From positions 267,001 to 331,000 of the forward strand of contig CP126121.1 of NCBI GenBank assembly GCA_030123625.1: 64,000 nt of DNA, written 5' to 3'. The notes below the pieces were generated by a model. It made no database searches and was not told where the DNA came from. It saw only the letters and a list, made by a program, of their open reading frames with translations. The position numbers and the translations under genes are program-made. Positions 965 to 7,703 of this stretch are shown in pieces. The stretch is from Nitrospira sp. GTDB lineage: Bacteria; Nitrospirota; Nitrospiria; Nitrospirales; Nitrospiraceae. Each line of letters begins with the position of its first letter. Positions within the stretch are counted from its first letter, which is position 1.

Positions 965-1204
965 TCATCTCAAGATCCCACCGATCGTGAACGGTGGGAG
1001 CCCCGCGAAAAAGCGGCATATGAGATCACTGCCGCCGTTTGCCCTACATCGGAGGTAGGCACCTATATCAGGATCCCCGACCGATCCGAGGCGAAATTGC
1101 GGCATAACATTGTCTCCGCCCCATATATAGGAAGATACCTTCCCTTGATAGGAGCTTGTAGTTGGACCAAGTGATGATTCCGCATTAAATCCCGGCATAG
1201 TCAT
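965..1204 (-). CDS. Precursor-like peptide with conserved N-terminal leader (last of the array)
   Basis: A 79-aa protein whose N-terminus MTMPGFNAESSL is a variant of the leader shared by the upstream small genes. ATG 1204 was chosen because AGGAGG sits six bases upstream; a longer reading would start at TTG 1210. The C-terminal part is Gly-rich and has only two cysteines (YLRCRANGG...LICRFF), unlike the Cys-rich siblings, so it may be a degenerate or differently modified member. There is no signal peptide. It is the promoter-distal gene of the minus-strand array. Function unknown; a role as substrate of the PatG-like proteins upstream is an inference from operon membership and leader similarity. 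Confidence 0.6.
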   Translation of the reverse strand: MTMPGFNAESSLGPTTSSYQGKVSSYIWGGDNVMPQFRLGSVGDPDIGAYLRCRANGGSDLICRFFAGLPPFTIGGILR

Positions 1205-1460
1205 TGTCAACCTCCTATTTTCGGACTTATCGGTTTATGGTCGCAGACGATGCGGTTGTTTTGACTCATCGCATCGTGTGCCCGGCACGTTTAGTCACGA
1301 ACCACTTCGTAGCCAACGCAGAGGATAGTGGAAATCGGTCCTTCTCCTTTCATCCATCGGTGCTGGCCGCCGTTGTCGCCACACACTGAAGCAGGCTAAA
1401 GAGCAGTAGGCTAAGCATAAGAGCCGATTAAACGGCGGCGATGTCACTCTGAAACAATCC

Positions 1461-1670
1461 CTATTTGTACCAAAATATTGGGTCAGAATAACAAATACAT
1501 TTACAGTTCCCATTTCCATAACAATAGCAATCACACCATGGAGTAGAAAATATGAGCGCTGGGACGACTCTCAATCCGTTGCTCATTCCTGCGATCTGCA
1601 TATTTCGGTAATCTTTAGTCCTGTACATGCTCGCTTCTGCGGTAAATCCTGGCAAATTCAAGGCGTTCAT
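1461..1670 (-). CDS. Precursor-like peptide with CxCxC...CxCxC core
   Basis: A 69-aa protein. The open frame extends to 1733, but ATG 1670 is preferred: it has AGGAGGAG about nine bases upstream and puts the conserved leader (MNALNLPGFTAEASMYRT, then DY) at the N-terminus, as in the siblings. The C-terminus is short and striking: two runs of alternating cysteines, WCDCYCY and NCKCICY, separated by GNG, followed by an aromatic tail ending FWYK. The symmetrical six-Cys arrangement could bind metal, form disulfides or carry thioether or azoline modification; the sequence alone does not decide. No signal peptide. Neighbours on both sides carry the same leader. Confidence 0.65.
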   Translation of the reverse strand: MNALNLPGFTAEASMYRTKDYRNMQIAGMSNGLRVVPALIFSTPWCDCYCYGNGNCKCICYSDPIFWYK

Positions 1671-1739
1671 CTCATGTCTCCTCCTCTGAGACTTGATAAA
1701 CCGGGCTGAACGCGATGCGCCTCCCTCCCTCACTACTTT

Positions 1740-2249
1740 TCATGCACACGATGCACAGCGCCATCCGCATGTCTCCCCATAGCACTTCCGTCGTTCGCGC
1801 AGCGCCTCGGCATTAATCGCATTGCACCAGGTGTCGGAGCCTTCACACGGTTCTAAAGGATGTGCAATATCACACTCCTTTTTGCATTCCCTGCAAATAT
1901 CACGGTCATAATTGGGATTGGGTTGCAGACCTGGCGGACAAGGCACCTCAATGGCAGGATCACCCGTTCCTACACCACCTCCTCCACCTCCGCTATCGGA
2001 TGGCCCGCCAGGTACACTCGACCCACCGCTTCCGGCCCAGGAAGGATCGGGAATGCAGGTCATGTTCTCGCCCTCACCAAGCTGCAGGAAGCCGGGTCTG
2101 CAGCCGAAGACCTCGATTGTCTCGTCCATCATTGCGGGATACATTCGACTGATTATTCGCATCGATGGGGTGTGTACCCGTCCACTGGTTTGGTACCGCA
2201 CGTTGGTCTTATAGAGCGAAGCCTCGGCGGTAAATCGTGGCAAGCTCAT
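1740..2249 (-). CDS. Precursor-like peptide with 12 cysteines and Gly-rich linker
   Basis: A 169-aa protein in three parts. Residues 1-20 are the shared leader (SLPRFTAEASLYKTNVRYQ). Residues about 40-65 form a module with two cysteines, IEVFGCRPGF...GENMTC, also present in the gene at 3398-3937. A Gly/Ser/Pro-rich linker (about 70-98) follows. The C-terminal module holds CRECKKECDIAHPLEPC and ends CGWRCASCA; it resembles the C-terminus of the gene at 2861-3298. GGGAGGGAG precedes the ATG. The 12 cysteines suggest disulfide or metal structure, or many modification sites. No secretion signal is visible. Function unknown; a RiPP-type precursor is the favoured reading. Confidence 0.7.
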   Translation of the reverse strand: MSLPRFTAEASLYKTNVRYQTSGRVHTPSMRIISRMYPAMMDETIEVFGCRPGFLQLGEGENMTCIPDPSWAGSGGSSVPGGPSDSGGGGGGVGTGDPAIEVPCPPGLQPNPNYDRDICRECKKECDIAHPLEPCEGSDTWCNAINAEALRERRKCYGETCGWRCASCA

Positions 2250-2384
2250 GATATCTCCCTCCCATAATTTCGAAAACTCGTTTAGCAGAACGGCATGGGC
2301 GTATCGAGCAAAGGTGGTGCTTGCGCTTGTACCAAGTTACGCTATAACTCACCGGCCTTCCAAAATCACCCCAGGCAGATTTCT

Positions 2385-2744
2385 TCATCCTGGAACGCAG
2401 TTTCCAAACAGGCAAAACGTTCCATTGTGACAGCAGCGTACGCCACCACAGCAAAACATGCCCTCTGGACAACAGCCCCGGTCCGGGGAAGGCGGCGGGG
2501 GTGGTGGAGAAGAAGGTTTCGTACAACAAATCCCCGTTTCTGTACAGGAATCAGGGTCAAACCCAGAACAAAACATCCCGCTAAACCCACTAGGGCAGCT
2601 TGGATCACGAACAGTACAATGGAATCCTTTCGATATTGCGGGAGACACTCGACCATCAAACCCGGTCGCAAAAGCCGCTGTAAGACGATAGTATTTAGTT
2701 GATCTGTCAAGCGTCGCCTCCGCGGTAAAACCTGGTACGTTCAT
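2385..2744 (-). CDS. Precursor-like peptide, knottin-like 14-Cys core
   Basis: A 119-aa protein. ATG 2744 is preferred over ATG 2756 because it puts the conserved leader MNVPGFTAEATL directly at the N-terminus and has GAGGTG just upstream. The body has 14 cysteines: an N-terminal group (HCTV, DPSCPSGF, MFCSGFDPDSC, ICC), a run of prolines, and a C-terminal group CCPEGMFCCGGVRCC...FCLFGNC that resembles small disulfide-knot or granulin-like folds. It sits between two other leader-bearing genes on the same strand. There is no Sec signal, which is unusual for a disulfide-rich peptide. Either leader-dependent export or a cytoplasmic modification seems likely, both inferred. Confidence 0.68.
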   Translation of the reverse strand: MNVPGFTAEATLDRSTKYYRLTAAFATGFDGRVSPAISKGFHCTVRDPSCPSGFSGMFCSGFDPDSCTETGICCTKPSSPPPPPPSPDRGCCPEGMFCCGGVRCCHNGTFCLFGNCVPG

Positions 2745-2860
2745 AATGCACCTCATATGTGCAATATCAGACTCCCCTACAGAAGAGACCGTAGTACCAC
2801 TGAGCAGGTTTCAAAAGCTCGCGCCACACCCAGCCAACAGGTTCCGTTTCATCTACATCT

Positions 2861-3298
2861 TCATATGCAAGGGGCACAATATTCTCGGCAGCGAACTTTG
2901 CAAAGTCTTTGTGCCTGCTCATCCGGATGCTCAATAGCGCATATTCTGTAACATTCGTCACAATTTGCTTGGCTGTAGTTGGCATTCGGTCTTTTTGGAG
3001 GCTTGCACCCACCGCCTCCACTCTCTCCGGGAAAGCCCGGGAACGGCGGATTTTCCATTCCTTCCTGATACGGCCCGCCGGGGGGAGCCCCGCTCTGAAC
3101 CCAGTTCTCAAAGCAATGGAGTTCCGCGCATTCGCCACCTACGCAGTTGCCGCAGTTCACACCGCCGGTATTGATCATGGATGGATTGATCGCATCCATC
3201 ATTGTTGGCACGGAGAACGTGACGGCCTGCATGCCCGTTTGGTAATGCCCATTCGTTTTGTAGAGCGAGGCGTCCGCCGTAAATCGTGGCATCATCAT
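2861..3298 (-). CDS. Precursor-like peptide with 12 cysteines
   Basis: A 145-aa protein. Leader MMMPRFTADASLYKTNGHYQ occupies the first 20 residues. A first Cys cluster (NCGNCVGGECAELHC, about 48-62) is followed by a Pro/Gly linker with PGESGGGG. The C-terminal module NANYSQANCDECYRIC...EHPDE...CKVRCREYCAPCI aligns by eye with the tail of the 1740-2249 gene (N-x-N-Y, C-x-E-C, I-x-H-P-x-E, final C-x-x-C). GGGAGG precedes the first of three consecutive ATGs. Twelve cysteines and no signal peptide. Part of the same minus-strand array as its neighbours. Confidence 0.7.
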   Translation of the reverse strand: MMMPRFTADASLYKTNGHYQTGMQAVTFSVPTMMDAINPSMINTGGVNCGNCVGGECAELHCFENWVQSGAPPGGPYQEGMENPPFPGFPGESGGGGCKPPKRPNANYSQANCDECYRICAIEHPDEQAQRLCKVRCREYCAPCI

Positions 3299-3397
3299 GT
3301 CACACCTCCCTTGTGCAAGGTTGCTCTGAGAACCGTGTCACTCTTAATGCAACTGCACAGTCGGGATTGGGTTTTTCTTTAACCCAATCGACCGGTG

Positions 3398-3937
3398 TCA
3401 ATTCAAATCGTCACATATCTTGACCTCCTTGTCTCCTTGACAACACTGCATCTTTGGATGTACAACCCGTCCCTTCTTTTTTCCCGTGCATTGCACATAA
3501 TGCTGCTTCTCCTCATTTACGCCCTGCGCTATATCATCTTCCTGTTTGCGTAAGCACGGCTTCGCCTCTTTGGACAACAGTTGTCTAGAACTACAGCCGA
3601 ACAAAATAGGTTTGTCCAGGTCAGCATCGGACGGAATGCTTTCACCCCCGTCTTCATCACCGCCACCCGGCCCGCCACTTCCAGAGCCACCACCATCGTG
3701 ACCGCGAGTGCCGAACGGATCTGCTGGATCGACGCAGACCATATTCGCCCCCTCGCCGATTTGAATGAACCCCGCCCTGCACGCGTGGACCTCGATGGGG
3801 CCTTCGTCGCTAATGCCGAGTGCCGGGCCGATCGTGCCCCCCATTTGGTAGGGCAGATTGATCGTGTTTCGATTGGTCTGATAGTGCCCGGTAGTTTTAT
3901 AGAGCGCGGCTTCTGCCGTAAATCGTGGCATCGTCAT
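3398..3937 (-). CDS. Precursor-like peptide with 8 cysteines and Gly-rich linker
   Basis: A 179-aa protein, the longest of the array. It has the leader MTMPRFTAEAALYKTTGHYQ, then the two-Cys module IEVHACRAGF...GANMVC (about 48-69) shared with the gene at 1740-2249, and a Gly/Asp/Ser linker (about 75-100). The Lys-rich C-terminal part contains six further cysteines, including MQCCQGD and KICDDLN. AAAGGAGGG lies upstream of the ATG. The mosaic of leader, common module and unrelated tail supports diversification of the C-terminus. No membrane segment or signal peptide was seen. Function unknown. Confidence 0.68.
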   Translation of the reverse strand: MTMPRFTAEAALYKTTGHYQTNRNTINLPYQMGGTIGPALGISDEGPIEVHACRAGFIQIGEGANMVCVDPADPFGTRGHDGGGSGSGGPGGGDEDGGESIPSDADLDKPILFGCSSRQLLSKEAKPCLRKQEDDIAQGVNEEKQHYVQCTGKKKGRVVHPKMQCCQGDKEVKICDDLN

Positions 3938-4028: not shown

Positions 4029-4212
4029 TCACAGACGCACCCTGCATCTCCGAACAAAACAGCCCAACCCAATCCCGGGGGGTGGACAACAAAATTGTCG
4101 GCCATCAATGCATGGGGAACAACGGAAGAAGCCCGGCACGCAGGTGCCTTGCTCGCCTGGTCGCCTCGCCGTACACCTCAGCAGTAAACCCTGGTATATT
4201 GACAATATTCAT
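4029..4212 (-). pseudogene. Frameshifted precursor-like peptide gene
   Basis: From ATG 4212 the frame reads MNIVNIPGFTAEV and then stops after 35 codons at 4105. The +1 frame is open across the same DNA and continues to a TGA at 4029, encoding a Cys-rich tail: GTCVPGFFRCSPCIDGRQFC followed by CPPPG, GCF and RRC. Joining leader and tail would give a normal family member of about 60 residues with seven or more cysteines. One extra base (or two lost) between roughly codons 13 and 20 explains the break. It could be a real lesion, an assembly error, or recoding. It is the first small gene after the PatG-C-like gene. Confidence 0.6.
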
Positions 4213-4238: not shown

Positions 4239-5144
4239 TTACCGGTCATAGTACGGCGACAGCTTCGTCACCAAGAACGGAAACTCTTCCGTCACATCGC
4301 AGCGTACGCAAAACTTCTCCGTATAATCCGTGTTGCGGTTGGTGTACGCGAAGATGACCTCGACGATCTTGCGCGTGCCGCTTAGCGGTGAAGGCCGCAC
4401 CTCCACCCCGCTCATTGCAAAGTCCCGCGCAAACTGTTCCGCGGCCTTCACATAGATGCCGTGATAGCGCATGGTCAAATAGTTCAGCGCCCGGTGCTCA
4501 TCCGTGGCCCCCGCGTTGTCGGTCATCTCTAGGATCCGATCGAGCACCTCGCCTGCCGCGGCATCAAACTGCTTGCCCGTCGCCTTCTCAGGCCGTGGAA
4601 TGGCTTTAATGAGCGCCTCACGGTCGAACGAGTAGATCTGGTCGAACACGACGATCGGAACCATCAGTCCATTGCACAGCTCCGGCGGCGCAATCGGCCC
4701 CCGCGTGCCGATCACGACATCAAGGTCCAAGGGACTCGGTTGCGGACGAATCGCCTCCACCAATCGATCGACATCCTTTGGATCGCGCGGCATCAAGATA
4801 TAGGTGTCCAACCCTTGAATGGCCAACACCCAGCACATTTGCCGTGCGAGATATCGGTTCTCAGGTTTGGACAGCACGTTGTAGAACGCTTGCTGATCGG
4901 TTTGCCCCGCAGTCTCGGTTCGCCCTGCCGCCTGGGCGAATTCCTTTTCGACCGAGAGACGCGGGAATCGTGCCTCAACCCGGCCGATCGCATATACATA
5001 AGAAACCGGCATAGAGGAAGCGCCAGAACAGGTCGGACAGGACACCTCGGTGATTGGCATGGCCGCGGCGACCTGACCATTGGCAGGAGAGGCCACAGCG
5101 CTATCGATCCGGTTGACTGGTTGCTCGTTCGTTTCGTGGCTCAT
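4239..5144 (-). CDS. Stand-alone PatG C-terminal-domain-like protein
   Basis: A 301-aa protein recognised from conserved blocks of the C-terminal domain of cyanobactin maturation proteases (PatG family): YVYAIGRVEARFP (about 48-60), EKEFAQAAGR, VLSKPENRYLARQMCWVL, PELCNGLMVPIVVFDQIYSF, DNAGATDEHRALNYL and the terminal EEFPFLVTKLSPYYDR. The domain has no assigned enzymatic role in cyanobactin systems. In PatG it is fused behind the protease; here it is a separate gene two genes downstream of the protease. Residues 1-45 are an extra disordered stretch with a CPTC pair (C36, C39). AAAGGAGGAG precedes the ATG. It lies between the 71-aa CGGC gene and the precursor array, so a scaffold or leader-recognition role is plausible but inferred. 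Confidence 0.8.
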   Translation of the reverse strand: MSHETNEQPVNRIDSAVASPANGQVAAAMPITEVSCPTCSGASSMPVSYVYAIGRVEARFPRLSVEKEFAQAAGRTETAGQTDQQAFYNVLSKPENRYLARQMCWVLAIQGLDTYILMPRDPKDVDRLVEAIRPQPSPLDLDVVIGTRGPIAPPELCNGLMVPIVVFDQIYSFDREALIKAIPRPEKATGKQFDAAAGEVLDRILEMTDNAGATDEHRALNYLTMRYHGIYVKAAEQFARDFAMSGVEVRPSPLSGTRKIVEVIFAYTNRNTDYTEKFCVRCDVTEEFPFLVTKLSPYYDR

Positions 5145-5183
5145 CGTTCTCCTCCTTTTATAGGGTGGATGTCCGAGGCATCA

Positions 5184-5399
5184 TCATTTAAACCGGCCGG
5201 TAAAGACCATCCAACGGTTCAGCGCCGCAGCTCGGCGTTCGCACCCGCCGCAAGGGCGTATTCCCATATAGGTGGTCGCCCGCTTGATCACATCGCCCAG
5301 GCCGATCTCTTCCTCAGAAACAAATCCGGGCAGGCGTACTTCATGGGGTTGCCGTCCCTGCCGATCCGCGGAATCGTTTTTTTCGTTTACTGTTGTCAT
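5184..5399 (-). CDS. Small protein with IKRATxxxGIRPCGGCxxRAxxLNRW motif
   Basis: A 71-aa protein. ATG 5399 overlaps the protease stop codon (ATGA) and has AAGGAGG upstream, so translation is probably coupled. Residues about 22-32 read VRLPGFVSEEE, a loose echo of the leader of the downstream array. The second half contains GLGDVIKRATTYMGIRPCGG followed by CERRAAALNRW. This C-x-x-C-x-x-R-A-x-x-L-N-R-W pattern recurs in small bacterial proteins and peptide tails of unknown function. It could be an atypical precursor, a leader-binding adaptor or a metal-binding partner. No signal peptide or membrane segment. Identity beyond the motif is unknown. Confidence 0.7.
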   Translation of the reverse strand: MTTVNEKNDSADRQGRQPHEVRLPGFVSEEEIGLGDVIKRATTYMGIRPCGGCERRAAALNRWMVFTGRFK

Positions 5400-6277
5400 G
5401 CTCGCCTCCTTGCATTCGTGGTCGAAAGAAAGTGATAGGCTGCCATGGCATCCATGAGGGGAGGCACCACCGAGGCTCTTCGCATCGTAGAAGATCGCAT
5501 CAGAGCGAGTTTGATATGGGCGGCACTCATGGAAGGAAATTCCGACCACAAGAGCGCAATCGCCCCCGTCACGAACGGCACTGCGACGCTCGTTCCTCCA
5601 AGCGTGAGAGGTTCACCTTTAGTTCCCAGACTAGTGATGCCCGCACCGGGAGCTAAGAGCCCACGCCTACCCATAGAGCTGCTCAAGTTCGATTCATTCA
5701 GTGGTTTGCCTTGGAGGTCGCATGCCACGACCGGGATGACCCAGGGATGGCGGGTGATTGCGGAGCTGCCGAGCGTGCCTTGATTGCCGGCCGCAGCAAC
5801 GACGAGGACACCACGTCTGGCGCACAGATGGAGCGACTCGTCCAGTGCCTGTTCGCCCTTCGTGGACGGGTGAGCAAGAGCAAGGCTCAGATTGATGACT
5901 CGTACGCTAGCGCCCAGGCAGTCTCGAATCGCCGCAGCAAGTTCTTGAGGCGTGGCGCTCGGCATGGATTCCCTTCCTAAAGTCGTTTCGGGGAAAATGG
6001 ACCGTATAACGAGCGTGCAGTCAGGGCAAATGGCGGGGGCGGGAGAATTCCGCCGTGCAGATAAGATGCCGGCGACAAAGGTGCCATGCAGACATGAGCT
6101 GCTATTGGCATTCGTGCACGAAGCGGCTTGCTTTCCAGAAATCTCGCGGAGGCGCTCGATTGACAGATCAGGATGGTGCGTCAGAACCGGGCCATCGATA
6201 AGTCCTATCTTCACCTCGCTGCGCCCGCTGGTCCTTTCCATCAGCGGGGTGAGTTTGATTAAGTCCAACGGTGCCAT
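5396..6277 (-). CDS. Subtilisin-like (S8) protease of the PatA/PatG cyanobactin type
   Basis: A 293-aa S8 serine protease domain with little else. Catalytic residues are visible: Asp28 in IGLIDGP, His64 in CLHGTFVAGIL, Ser230 in LGGTSVAVPF, with the oxyanion Asn165 in AAAGNQG. There is no signal peptide, so it should act in the cytoplasm, as PatA and PatG do; the size and lack of a propeptide fit that subgroup. ATG 6277 is preferred over GTG 6292 because AAGGA lies about nine bases upstream. It is the first gene of the operon that continues into the CGGC protein, the PatG-C-like protein and the leader-peptide array. The likely role is leader or follower cleavage of those peptides; whether it also macrocyclises cannot be told from sequence. 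Confidence 0.82.
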   Translation of the reverse strand: MAPLDLIKLTPLMERTSGRSEVKIGLIDGPVLTHHPDLSIERLREISGKQAASCTNANSSSCLHGTFVAGILSARRNSPAPAICPDCTLVIRSIFPETTLGRESMPSATPQELAAAIRDCLGASVRVINLSLALAHPSTKGEQALDESLHLCARRGVLVVAAAGNQGTLGSSAITRHPWVIPVVACDLQGKPLNESNLSSSMGRRGLLAPGAGITSLGTKGEPLTLGGTSVAVPFVTGAIALLWSEFPSMSAAHIKLALMRSSTMRRASVVPPLMDAMAAYHFLSTTNARRRA

Positions 6278-6735: not shown

Positions 6736-7068
6736 TCATCGCTGGAGTTCACTCTCAACCTGTTTAAGAATCTCCTTCTTCTTTCCCAGTCCTCCAATGA
6801 ACTTTACAAATTCTCCATTCCGATACAAAGCCAATGCCGGAAGCGATGAGACTTCCAATTCGGCGGAGATTTGAAAATTCTCGTCCACATTCATCGTAAG
6901 AATGAGAAGACGCGATCCCCTATCGGCTTGCACACGTTCGAGTTCTGCCATGAGTGCTCGACAATGACCACAGCCCGGCTTCCAGAATTCCACCAAGATA
7001 GGGACAGAACTTGCCTCGACTACCCCATCAAACTCTCGATCAGTGACGGCTTGTAGTATGGAACTCAC
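6736..7068 (-). CDS. Thioredoxin-fold protein (CGHC)
   Basis: A 110-aa thioredoxin domain with WKPGCGHC (Cys33 and Cys36 when counted from GTG 7068) and the cis-Pro segment SSLPALALY about 40 residues later. The open frame is longer upstream, but GTG 7068 overlaps the stop of the SGNH hydrolase (GTGA), gives the usual thioredoxin length, and removes a non-homologous Arg-rich extension. CGHC is the PDI-type active site rather than the CGPC of classical thioredoxin, which suggests a less reducing potential. No signal peptide. It forms a two-gene unit with the hydrolase. The next operon downstream encodes many Cys-rich peptides, but a functional link is speculative. Confidence 0.85.
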   Translation of the reverse strand: MSSILQAVTDREFDGVVEASSVPILVEFWKPGCGHCRALMAELERVQADRGSRLLILTMNVDENFQISAELEVSSLPALALYRNGEFVKFIGGLGKKKEILKQVESELQR

Positions 7069-7703
7069 GATTGCGGGTCTTGCGCCAACAACGGCTTCAG
7101 GATCCGTGCTACATGTTCGGCAAATAGGCGATACCCTGCGGTCGTCAGGTGAATCCCGTCGTTCGAGAACTGTTCCGCCAATTGCCCGCTCTGAGGATCC
7201 ACGGTGGCTGCGAACAGATCGACATAGGCGAGGCCTTTTGAGCCGGCGTAATCTTGGATAAGTCTGTTCAATCGGCTTCGACGGTCTAGATGCTCGGCGA
7301 TCCACTCTTGACCCGTCGTGCCGTCCCGACCGTCCTCTCCTCGTATTGAAGGAACCGTCACCGGAAGGGGCATGCCTCCCATCGCAAGGGTCTGCTCGTA
7401 CATCATGACCAGATTATGCATAATTTCCGCGGGTGACGCGTTCCATCCCAGATCGTTGGTTCCTCCTAGAATCGGCACATAGCCGGGCCGATGATCCAAC
7501 ACATCGCGCTGGAATCGCACGATCATTTCGCCCGTCGATTCACCACAGATCCCACTGGTGCGAACTTCGACGACATCGCCCAAATAAGATTGGAGAAACT
7601 GCCCATATGGAGTCTCTCGTCCGATCGGATTGTCTCTCGTCGGCGACTGAAACCCTGCCGTCAGGCTGTCGCCGAAACAGATGACAAGTGGAGTTCTACT
7701 CAT
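7065..7703 (-). CDS. SGNH/GDSL-family hydrolase
   Basis: An esterase or lipase-like SGNH hydrolase of about 212 aa. Block I is VICFGDSLTAGF (Ser of GDSL near residue 12), block III is GGTNDLG and block V is DGIHLTTAGY with the catalytic Asp and His. ATG 7703 was chosen because the GDSL block usually lies near the N-terminus of this family; a longer reading from 7742 adds 13 non-conserved residues, and neither start has a strong ribosome binding site. No signal peptide is evident, so it may be a cytoplasmic acyl-esterase (TesA/arylesterase type). It overlaps the thioredoxin-like gene by four bases. Confidence 0.82.
   Translation of the reverse strand: MSRTPLVICFGDSLTAGFQSPTRDNPIGRETPYGQFLQSYLGDVVEVRTSGICGESTGEMIVRFQRDVLDHRPGYVPILGGTNDLGWNASPAEIMHNLVMMYEQTLAMGGMPLPVTVPSIRGEDGRDGTTGQEWIAEHLDRRSRLNRLIQDYAGSKGLAYVDLFAATVDPQSGQLAEQFSNDGIHLTTAGYRLFAEHVARILKPLLAQDPQS

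Follow-up and report, generated by a model that had tools for sequence, protein, structure and literature searches.

What does the C-terminal domain of the cyanobactin proteases do when it is encoded as a protein of its own? This domain of PatA and PatG is conserved in characterised cyanobactin pathways, and its structure was solved in 2014. The isolated PatG DUF displays a novel fold, bound neither unmodified nor heterocyclised PatE by NMR, and its role was left open (PMC4259220). We analysed a 64,000-nt stretch of Nitrospira sp. DNA (the window), which covers positions 267001-331000 of a complete-looking, one-contig genome of 4.69 Mb that has three further PatG_DC loci. The original prediction placed a subtilase and the C-terminal domain here on two genes with a 71-aa gene between them, and both the coordinates and the Pfam assignments agree with it. 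The PatG_DC domain occurs here unfused to a protease and, in the genus tested, beside a putative substrate family exclusive to it; after more than a decade without an assigned role, the domain is now testable on its own, with its binding and function directly accessible. The features of the locus are as follows.

5396-6277, minus strand: SUB, a stand-alone PatA-like S8 subtilase of 293 aa (Pfam Peptidase_S8, 9.8e-25)
5184-5399, minus strand: S71, a 71-aa protein (family alignment), whose start overlaps the SUB stop (ATGA)
4239-5144, minus strand: DC, a stand-alone PatG_D-PatG_C protein of 301 aa (Pfam PatG_D 4.4e-35, PatG_C 1.5e-33)
4029-4212, minus strand: degenerate, frame-broken leader gene, MNIVNIPGFTAEVYGEA... 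(reading frames; Shine-Dalgarno AAGGAG; shared repeat D1 at 4175-4202)
3398-3937, minus strand: leader-tagged protein 1, 179 aa, MTMPRFTAEAALYKTTGHYQT..., motif IGPA
2861-3298, minus strand: leader-tagged protein 2, 145 aa, MMMPRFTADASLYKTNGHYQT..., motif INPS
2385-2744, minus strand: leader-tagged protein 3, 119 aa from the second Met, MNVPGFTAEATLDRSTKYYRL..., motif VSPA, tail very Cys-rich
1740-2249, minus strand: leader-tagged protein 4, 169 aa, MSLPRFTAEASLYKTNVRYQT..., motif MYPA
1461-1670, minus strand: leader-tagged peptide 5, 69 aa, MNALNLPGFTAEASMYRTKDYRN...VVPALIFSTPWCDCYCYGNGNCKCIC..., motif VVPA
965-1204, minus strand: leader-tagged peptide 6, 79 aa, MTMPGFNAESSLGPTTSSYQGK..., motif VMPQ

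SUB, S71 and DC are separate, consecutive genes, each with a clear Shine-Dalgarno sequence ahead of it. Downstream of DC, on the same strand, lie six intact leader-tagged genes (965-3937) and, directly after DC, the broken one, whose Cys-rich continuation sits in another frame; this break may be real decay or a sequencing error. The intact and degenerate leader genes belong to the SUB-S71-DC unit, and the extent of the locus was therefore underestimated by the original prediction, which omitted them together with the three further PatG_DC loci. A 28-bp leader-coding repeat occurs seven times in the array. The 79-aa leader gene recurs in identical form beyond the window, at a distance of about 2.6 kb (G000:C1:265474-265581), and these twin genes mark a recent event in which part of the array was duplicated. 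Elsewhere in the same genome, locus L007 (5308-9052) is a divergent cassette with a 724-aa leader protein and a second subtilase, of 453 aa. Just upstream of SUB and on its strand, window positions 6736-7305 encode a thioredoxin-like protein with a CGHC motif; since this gene was found at three Nitrospira loci only, two of them in the same genome, it probably lies outside the cassette.

The intact leader genes of the window start M..P[GR]F[TN]A[ED] and continue into hypervariable, mostly Cys-rich tails, and each intact protein carries a [VIM]xP[QAS] motif about 30 residues past PGF/PRF. Over 166 non-redundant proteins the leader consensus is P98 G82 F100 T71 A96 E87 x S79 L73 Y49 K/R T, with Y77 at +15. 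A [VIL]xP[QA] motif is present in 107 of the 166 (shuffled mean 12), its stricter variant [VIL]xPQ lying for the most part between +28 and +33, and a clean motif is absent from about one third of the leaders. Cys accounts for 0.5% of the first 20 residues versus 9.4% beyond. A conserved leader joined to a hypervariable core and encoded beside a processing enzyme is the arrangement by which RiPPs are generally recognised, and the locus has it. The leaders have no visible signal peptide and the family has no Pfam or NCBIfam model; no description was found in the papers searched, an absence that is no proof of its being undescribed. Literature searches with leader strings, PF18065 and PatG in Nitrospira gave no result, and cyanobactin with Nitrospira returned passing mentions. 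In two rhizobial records PatG_DC is annotated as 'hypothetical protein' and the protease as 'S8 family serine peptidase', and the leader genes are present and unlisted. At the level of sequence, the unit is an operon of SUB, S71, DC and genes sharing the leader M..PGFTAExSLYKT...Y joined to hypervariable tails.

How tightly is the leader tied to the stand-alone domain? PatG_C is found in 9 of 79 genomes of the genus and in 11 of 295 in a phylum sample. A profile built from 42 leaders (A3) matched only G000, G018, G054, G055, G056 and G059 among the 79. These six are exactly the genomes with a close split PatG_DC, and every match lies at a cassette, with no orphans; the other 73 gave no match, including G063, which has only a fused protein of about 667 aa, and G065 and G072, which have a divergent PatG_DC. 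The overlap has p ~4e-9 with the genomes counted as independent, which related genomes are not. As judged by this profile, neither the leader family nor the close split PatG_DC occurs without the other in the 79 genomes of the genus. In 13 distant genomes, leader matches occurred in nine, on the same contigs as PatG_DC and clustered beside DC, and in the other four there were none. Some Nitrospira (L029, L030, L031) also carry the fused S8-PatG_D-PatG_C protein of about 667 aa, with no leader genes nearby.

Scanning GTDB genomes with the stand-alone PatG_DC as query yielded at least 80 loci with 48-76% identity to it; the fractions given here describe this stand-alone family and not all PatG_C proteins. 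The loci come from Nitrosomonas, Nitrosospira, Nitrotoga, Methylobacter, Acidobacteria, Brocadia, Chloroflexi, Cyanobacteria, Streptomyces, Amycolatopsis and others, with two archaeal records that are drafts and call for caution. Among the matches listed, a separate subtilase ORF (at least 160 aa) is present at 76 of 80 loci and fused at one (L126), the gene being fragmented in L064 and L093; S71 is present at 63 of 80, leader genes at 64 of 80 and all parts at 49 of 80. Cassette copies are plasmid-borne in Sinorhizobium, Mesorhizobium and Streptomyces. Of 292 cyanobacterial genomes, 27 carry PatG_C, most with long fused reading frames of PatA/PatG type; stand-alone DC-family proteins occur in Calothrix NIES-4105 and Pseudanabaena lw0831, both with a cassette, and the remaining short PatG_C frames fall in the cyanobactin-type group. 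The order SUB-S71-DC-leader genes is conserved over many phyla, and the split is therefore neither a frameshift nor chance. Homologues that never co-occur had been named as the outcome that would speak against a functional pair; the opposite is seen, with SUB, DC and leaders co-occurring across loci. Pairwise distances of SUB and DC also correlate (r 0.81 over 78 loci; permutation maximum 0.31), as do those of S71 and DC to a lesser degree (0.46). SUB is missing beside DC in L103, L108 and L111, two of these genomes having no SUB at E<=1e-15, so SUB is either not strictly required or replaced.

In quick maximum-likelihood trees, which have long branches and SH-aLRT support only, the split proteins cluster in a single deep group that includes neither cyanobacterial PatA/PatG nor the fused Nitrospira proteins. 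L126 falls inside the split group, and its fused SUB-DC is best read as a secondary fusion. The pair could alternatively be a recently broken and decaying PatG gene without function, as its domains are the same as those of fused PatA/PatG. The split form is, however, conserved in about 75 loci of many phyla as a deep separate clade, with its catalytic and DC residues retained; conservation across loci rules this pseudogene out, and we give it practically no weight. On these trees, the SUB/DC pair is an old separate lineage and not a recently broken PatG. The label "split PatG" holds insofar as a separate gene encodes the C-terminal domain, and fails in that the protease is PatA-like and the pair a deep lineage instead of a PatG split product. 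Pieces of the PatG_DC 3' end turned up at 16 places, nine of them followed by a leader gene that begins 22-39 nt further on, which suggests that the leader arrays expand through duplications at this end of the gene.

SUB has an intact triad (D28/H64/S230) with oxyanion N165, conserved over 78 loci at 98% (D), 98% (H), 100% (S) and 100% (N), and a C84PDC87 motif whose cysteines are kept at 91% and 98%. Neither a signal peptide nor a prodomain is apparent in its sequence. Its best PDB match is the PatA-type protease 4h6w (4.7e-28), ahead of the PatG macrocyclase (2e-14). The spacing from the catalytic Asp to the His is 36 residues (28-42 over 69 SUBs); the PatG-type insertion before the His is not present in SUB, whose model aligns to PatA-type chains without a gap of this kind, and the second, PatG-type protease at L135 is longer than SUB by about 40 residues at this point. 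By these comparisons, SUB is a PatA-like and not a PatG-like protease. With 4h6w as its closest structure and an Asp-His spacing that lacks the PatG-type extra residues, SUB is predicted to act as a leader protease rather than a macrocyclase. When the cassette was compared with defence-partner models, SUB matched only generic subtilase/IetS protease models, and DC and S71 matched none.

Like PatA (S8-PatG_D-PatG_C, TIGR03895), the locus encodes a homologous protease and C-terminal domain, with PF00082, PF18047 and PF18065 all present, and SUB resembles PatA in lacking the insertion before the catalytic His and in its predicted cytoplasmic leader removal. Unlike in PatA, the domains lie on separate genes with the 71-aa gene between them, and SUB and DC score 102 and 27 bits against TIGR03895, both below its cut-off of 421. 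The precursor leader is also unrelated, YcaO/PatD is lacking, the cargo is Cys-rich instead of consisting of short cyclised cores, and many phyla are involved. In cyanobactin biosynthesis PatA cuts after G(L/V)E(A/P)S and PatG before AYDG (PMC10885120); neither recognition sequence was encountered here, where the leaders read P-G-F-T-A-E-x-S-L. No YcaO gene lies near the locus, the only ones in this genome being at 3.70 Mb, away from the window at 0.267-0.331 Mb. A cyanobactin cluster with a missing part was ruled out, given the lack of YcaO and of PatE motifs. The subtilisin-type RiPP leader proteases NisP and AmyP (PMC10885120) are similar in that an S8 protease is encoded with leader-bearing precursors, and differ in that SUB pairs with PatG_DC, the leader and site motifs are others, and no recurrent lanthionine synthetase lies nearby.

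We consider it probable that the locus is a self-contained, cytoplasmic, RiPP-like leader-processing cassette, in which SUB would cut the leader while DC and S71 present it. The original prediction had offered leader recognition or scaffolding as the job of the domain, and this is a good hypothesis because DC co-occurs with leader-bearing substrates. PatG_DC, together with S71, would recognise or hold the common leader and hand it to SUB, which would cleave at or near the conserved [VI]xP[Q/A], some 28-31 residues into the leader, and free the Cys-rich tail. This proposal draws on the conserved gene order, the linkage of leader and DC, the SUB-DC correlation and the natural SUB-DC fusion, as well as on the lack of a recurrent extra family, the intact SUB active site and the LPGF of S71. 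Two further observations also count in its favour, namely the motif in 49 of 96 DC N-tails described below and the DC fragments before leader genes. Against it stand the lack of a modelled interface, the three loci without SUB and the third of leaders without a clean motif. The failure of the PatG DUF to bind PatE (PMC4259220) counts against it as well, though the PatE leader differs.

DC itself matches the PatG DUF (PDB 4uvq) by profile (7.2e-8). Its AF2 model (pLDDT 82; residues ~1-45 disordered, forming an N-tail with C36xxC39) aligns to 4uvq by Foldseek at 2.5e-11 and by VIA with Z 18.2 over 230 residues at 20% identity, the next VIA match having Z 7.4. According to the model, DC shares the PatG-DUF fold (PMC4259220); it differs from 4uvq in standing alone, and where the protease would be it has a disordered N-tail that contains Cys. 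We considered and rejected reading DC as an OB-fold nucleic-acid binder or as a protease inhibitor: SSB, AspRS and Potempin gave Z <8, mostly over residues 44-179, and these matches span a common arrangement. A viral fold library gave no significant match to the DC model. As for the SUB-DC interface, a model of the natural fused protein (pTM 0.49, linker disordered) did not place the two parts with confidence, the C-terminal half of SUB being poor owing to the mixed alignment.

The DC N-tails carry a [VIL]x[PAS]Q followed by Cys in 49 of 96 cases (shuffled mean 2.7), and the natural SUB-DC linker bears the variant VISQ..C. This resembles the leader motif plus cargo, and the [VIL]xPQ..C of the tails may be a second site of SUB or a docking motif. 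It could also mean that DC regulates SUB, the N-tail sitting in the protease as a pseudosubstrate whose cutting switches SUB on; the strong SUB-DC co-variation would fit this too. However, DC remains where SUB is missing, about half of the tails lack the motif, that of the window included (it has CPTC only), and neither the PatA nor the PatG protease needs the DUF for its activity (PMC4259220), so that we regard such regulation as very improbable.

Conserved cysteines are found in DC, S71 and SUB alike. DC C104/C157 are 98% conserved, and CxC or CxxC occurs in 84 of 96 DC N-tails. S71 has the family consensus LPGFxxxEEIGLGDVIKRATxxxGIxPCGGCxxRAAALNRW, with LPGF at 93-100%, then GLGD and an invariant CxxC; P24, C50, C53 and R56 are at 100% in 65 sequences. 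Pfam and NCBIfam searches with S71 gave no match, and its second half (GLGD...PCGGCxxR) weakly matches phrog_32048, a family of Nonlabens phages of unknown function. In L050 and L126 the S71 protein has a complete leader at its N-terminus, which for the S71 that goes with the natural fusion reads MSIPGFTAETTV. Its alignment marks S71 as a conserved cassette component. The CxxC motifs of S71, the DC N-tail and SUB (C84/C87) might together make up one zinc site or thiol relay, and DC and S71 would then be a modification machinery that introduces disulfide or thioether links into the cargo before cleavage; that the cargo is Cys-rich agrees with this. We nevertheless consider it improbable, as no enzymatic activity is known for the PatG-DUF fold (PMC4259220), the CxxC tail of DC is disordered in the model, several loci lack S71 and no oxidoreductase fold is recognisable.

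The nature of the cargo bears on what happens after cleavage. Leader-tagged proteins have a median length of 86 aa, many cargoes extending just 30-60 aa past the motif. Pfam searches on 47 tails returned Kazal inhibitors in three, Stig1 in two and otherwise almost nothing, and the 724-aa member has Stig1/MXAN_6577-like Cys repeats. Kazal and Stig1, which some cargoes contain, are disulfide-rich domains of extracellular proteins, so export of disulfide-rich peptides or proteins is a more probable outcome than macrocycles. The leader might then be mainly a sorting or export tag, with DC and S71 escorting the tagged, disulfide-rich proteins to an exporter encoded elsewhere, while SUB removes the tag, so that the products would be secreted proteins and not natural-product peptides. 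Cargo of up to 724 aa with Stig1/MXAN_6577-like repeats agrees with this, as do the Kazal domains in three tails and the occasional loss of SUB where S71, DC and leader protein stay. The ORF clustering of about 100 loci cuts both ways: no recurrent cyclodehydratase/YcaO, radical SAM or other modifying enzyme was found, and neither was a transporter linked across phyla. As SUB and the leaders also lack visible signal peptides and the many short cargoes are RiPP-like, we judge a principal role in export to be rather unlikely, and continue to favour leader processing.

The leader would be a modular tag on diverse cargo. Through the cassette, a leader family comes to light whose cargo is very diverse and whose carriers include nitrifiers, acidobacteria, actinomycetes and rhizobia. 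More tentatively, the PGFTAExSL leader, DC and S71 could represent a new, horizontally spread class of leader-tag system with PatG_DC as the reader, a broader view that we rate as somewhat less likely than not. Arbitrary Cys-rich cargo would then arise by tail swapping, and PatA and PatG of the cyanobactin pathways would be specialised relatives with reader and protease in one chain. The Kazal-type inhibitors carrying the leader are those of L035, L036 and L037; they are encoded with a subtilase in the first two of these loci and without one in L037.
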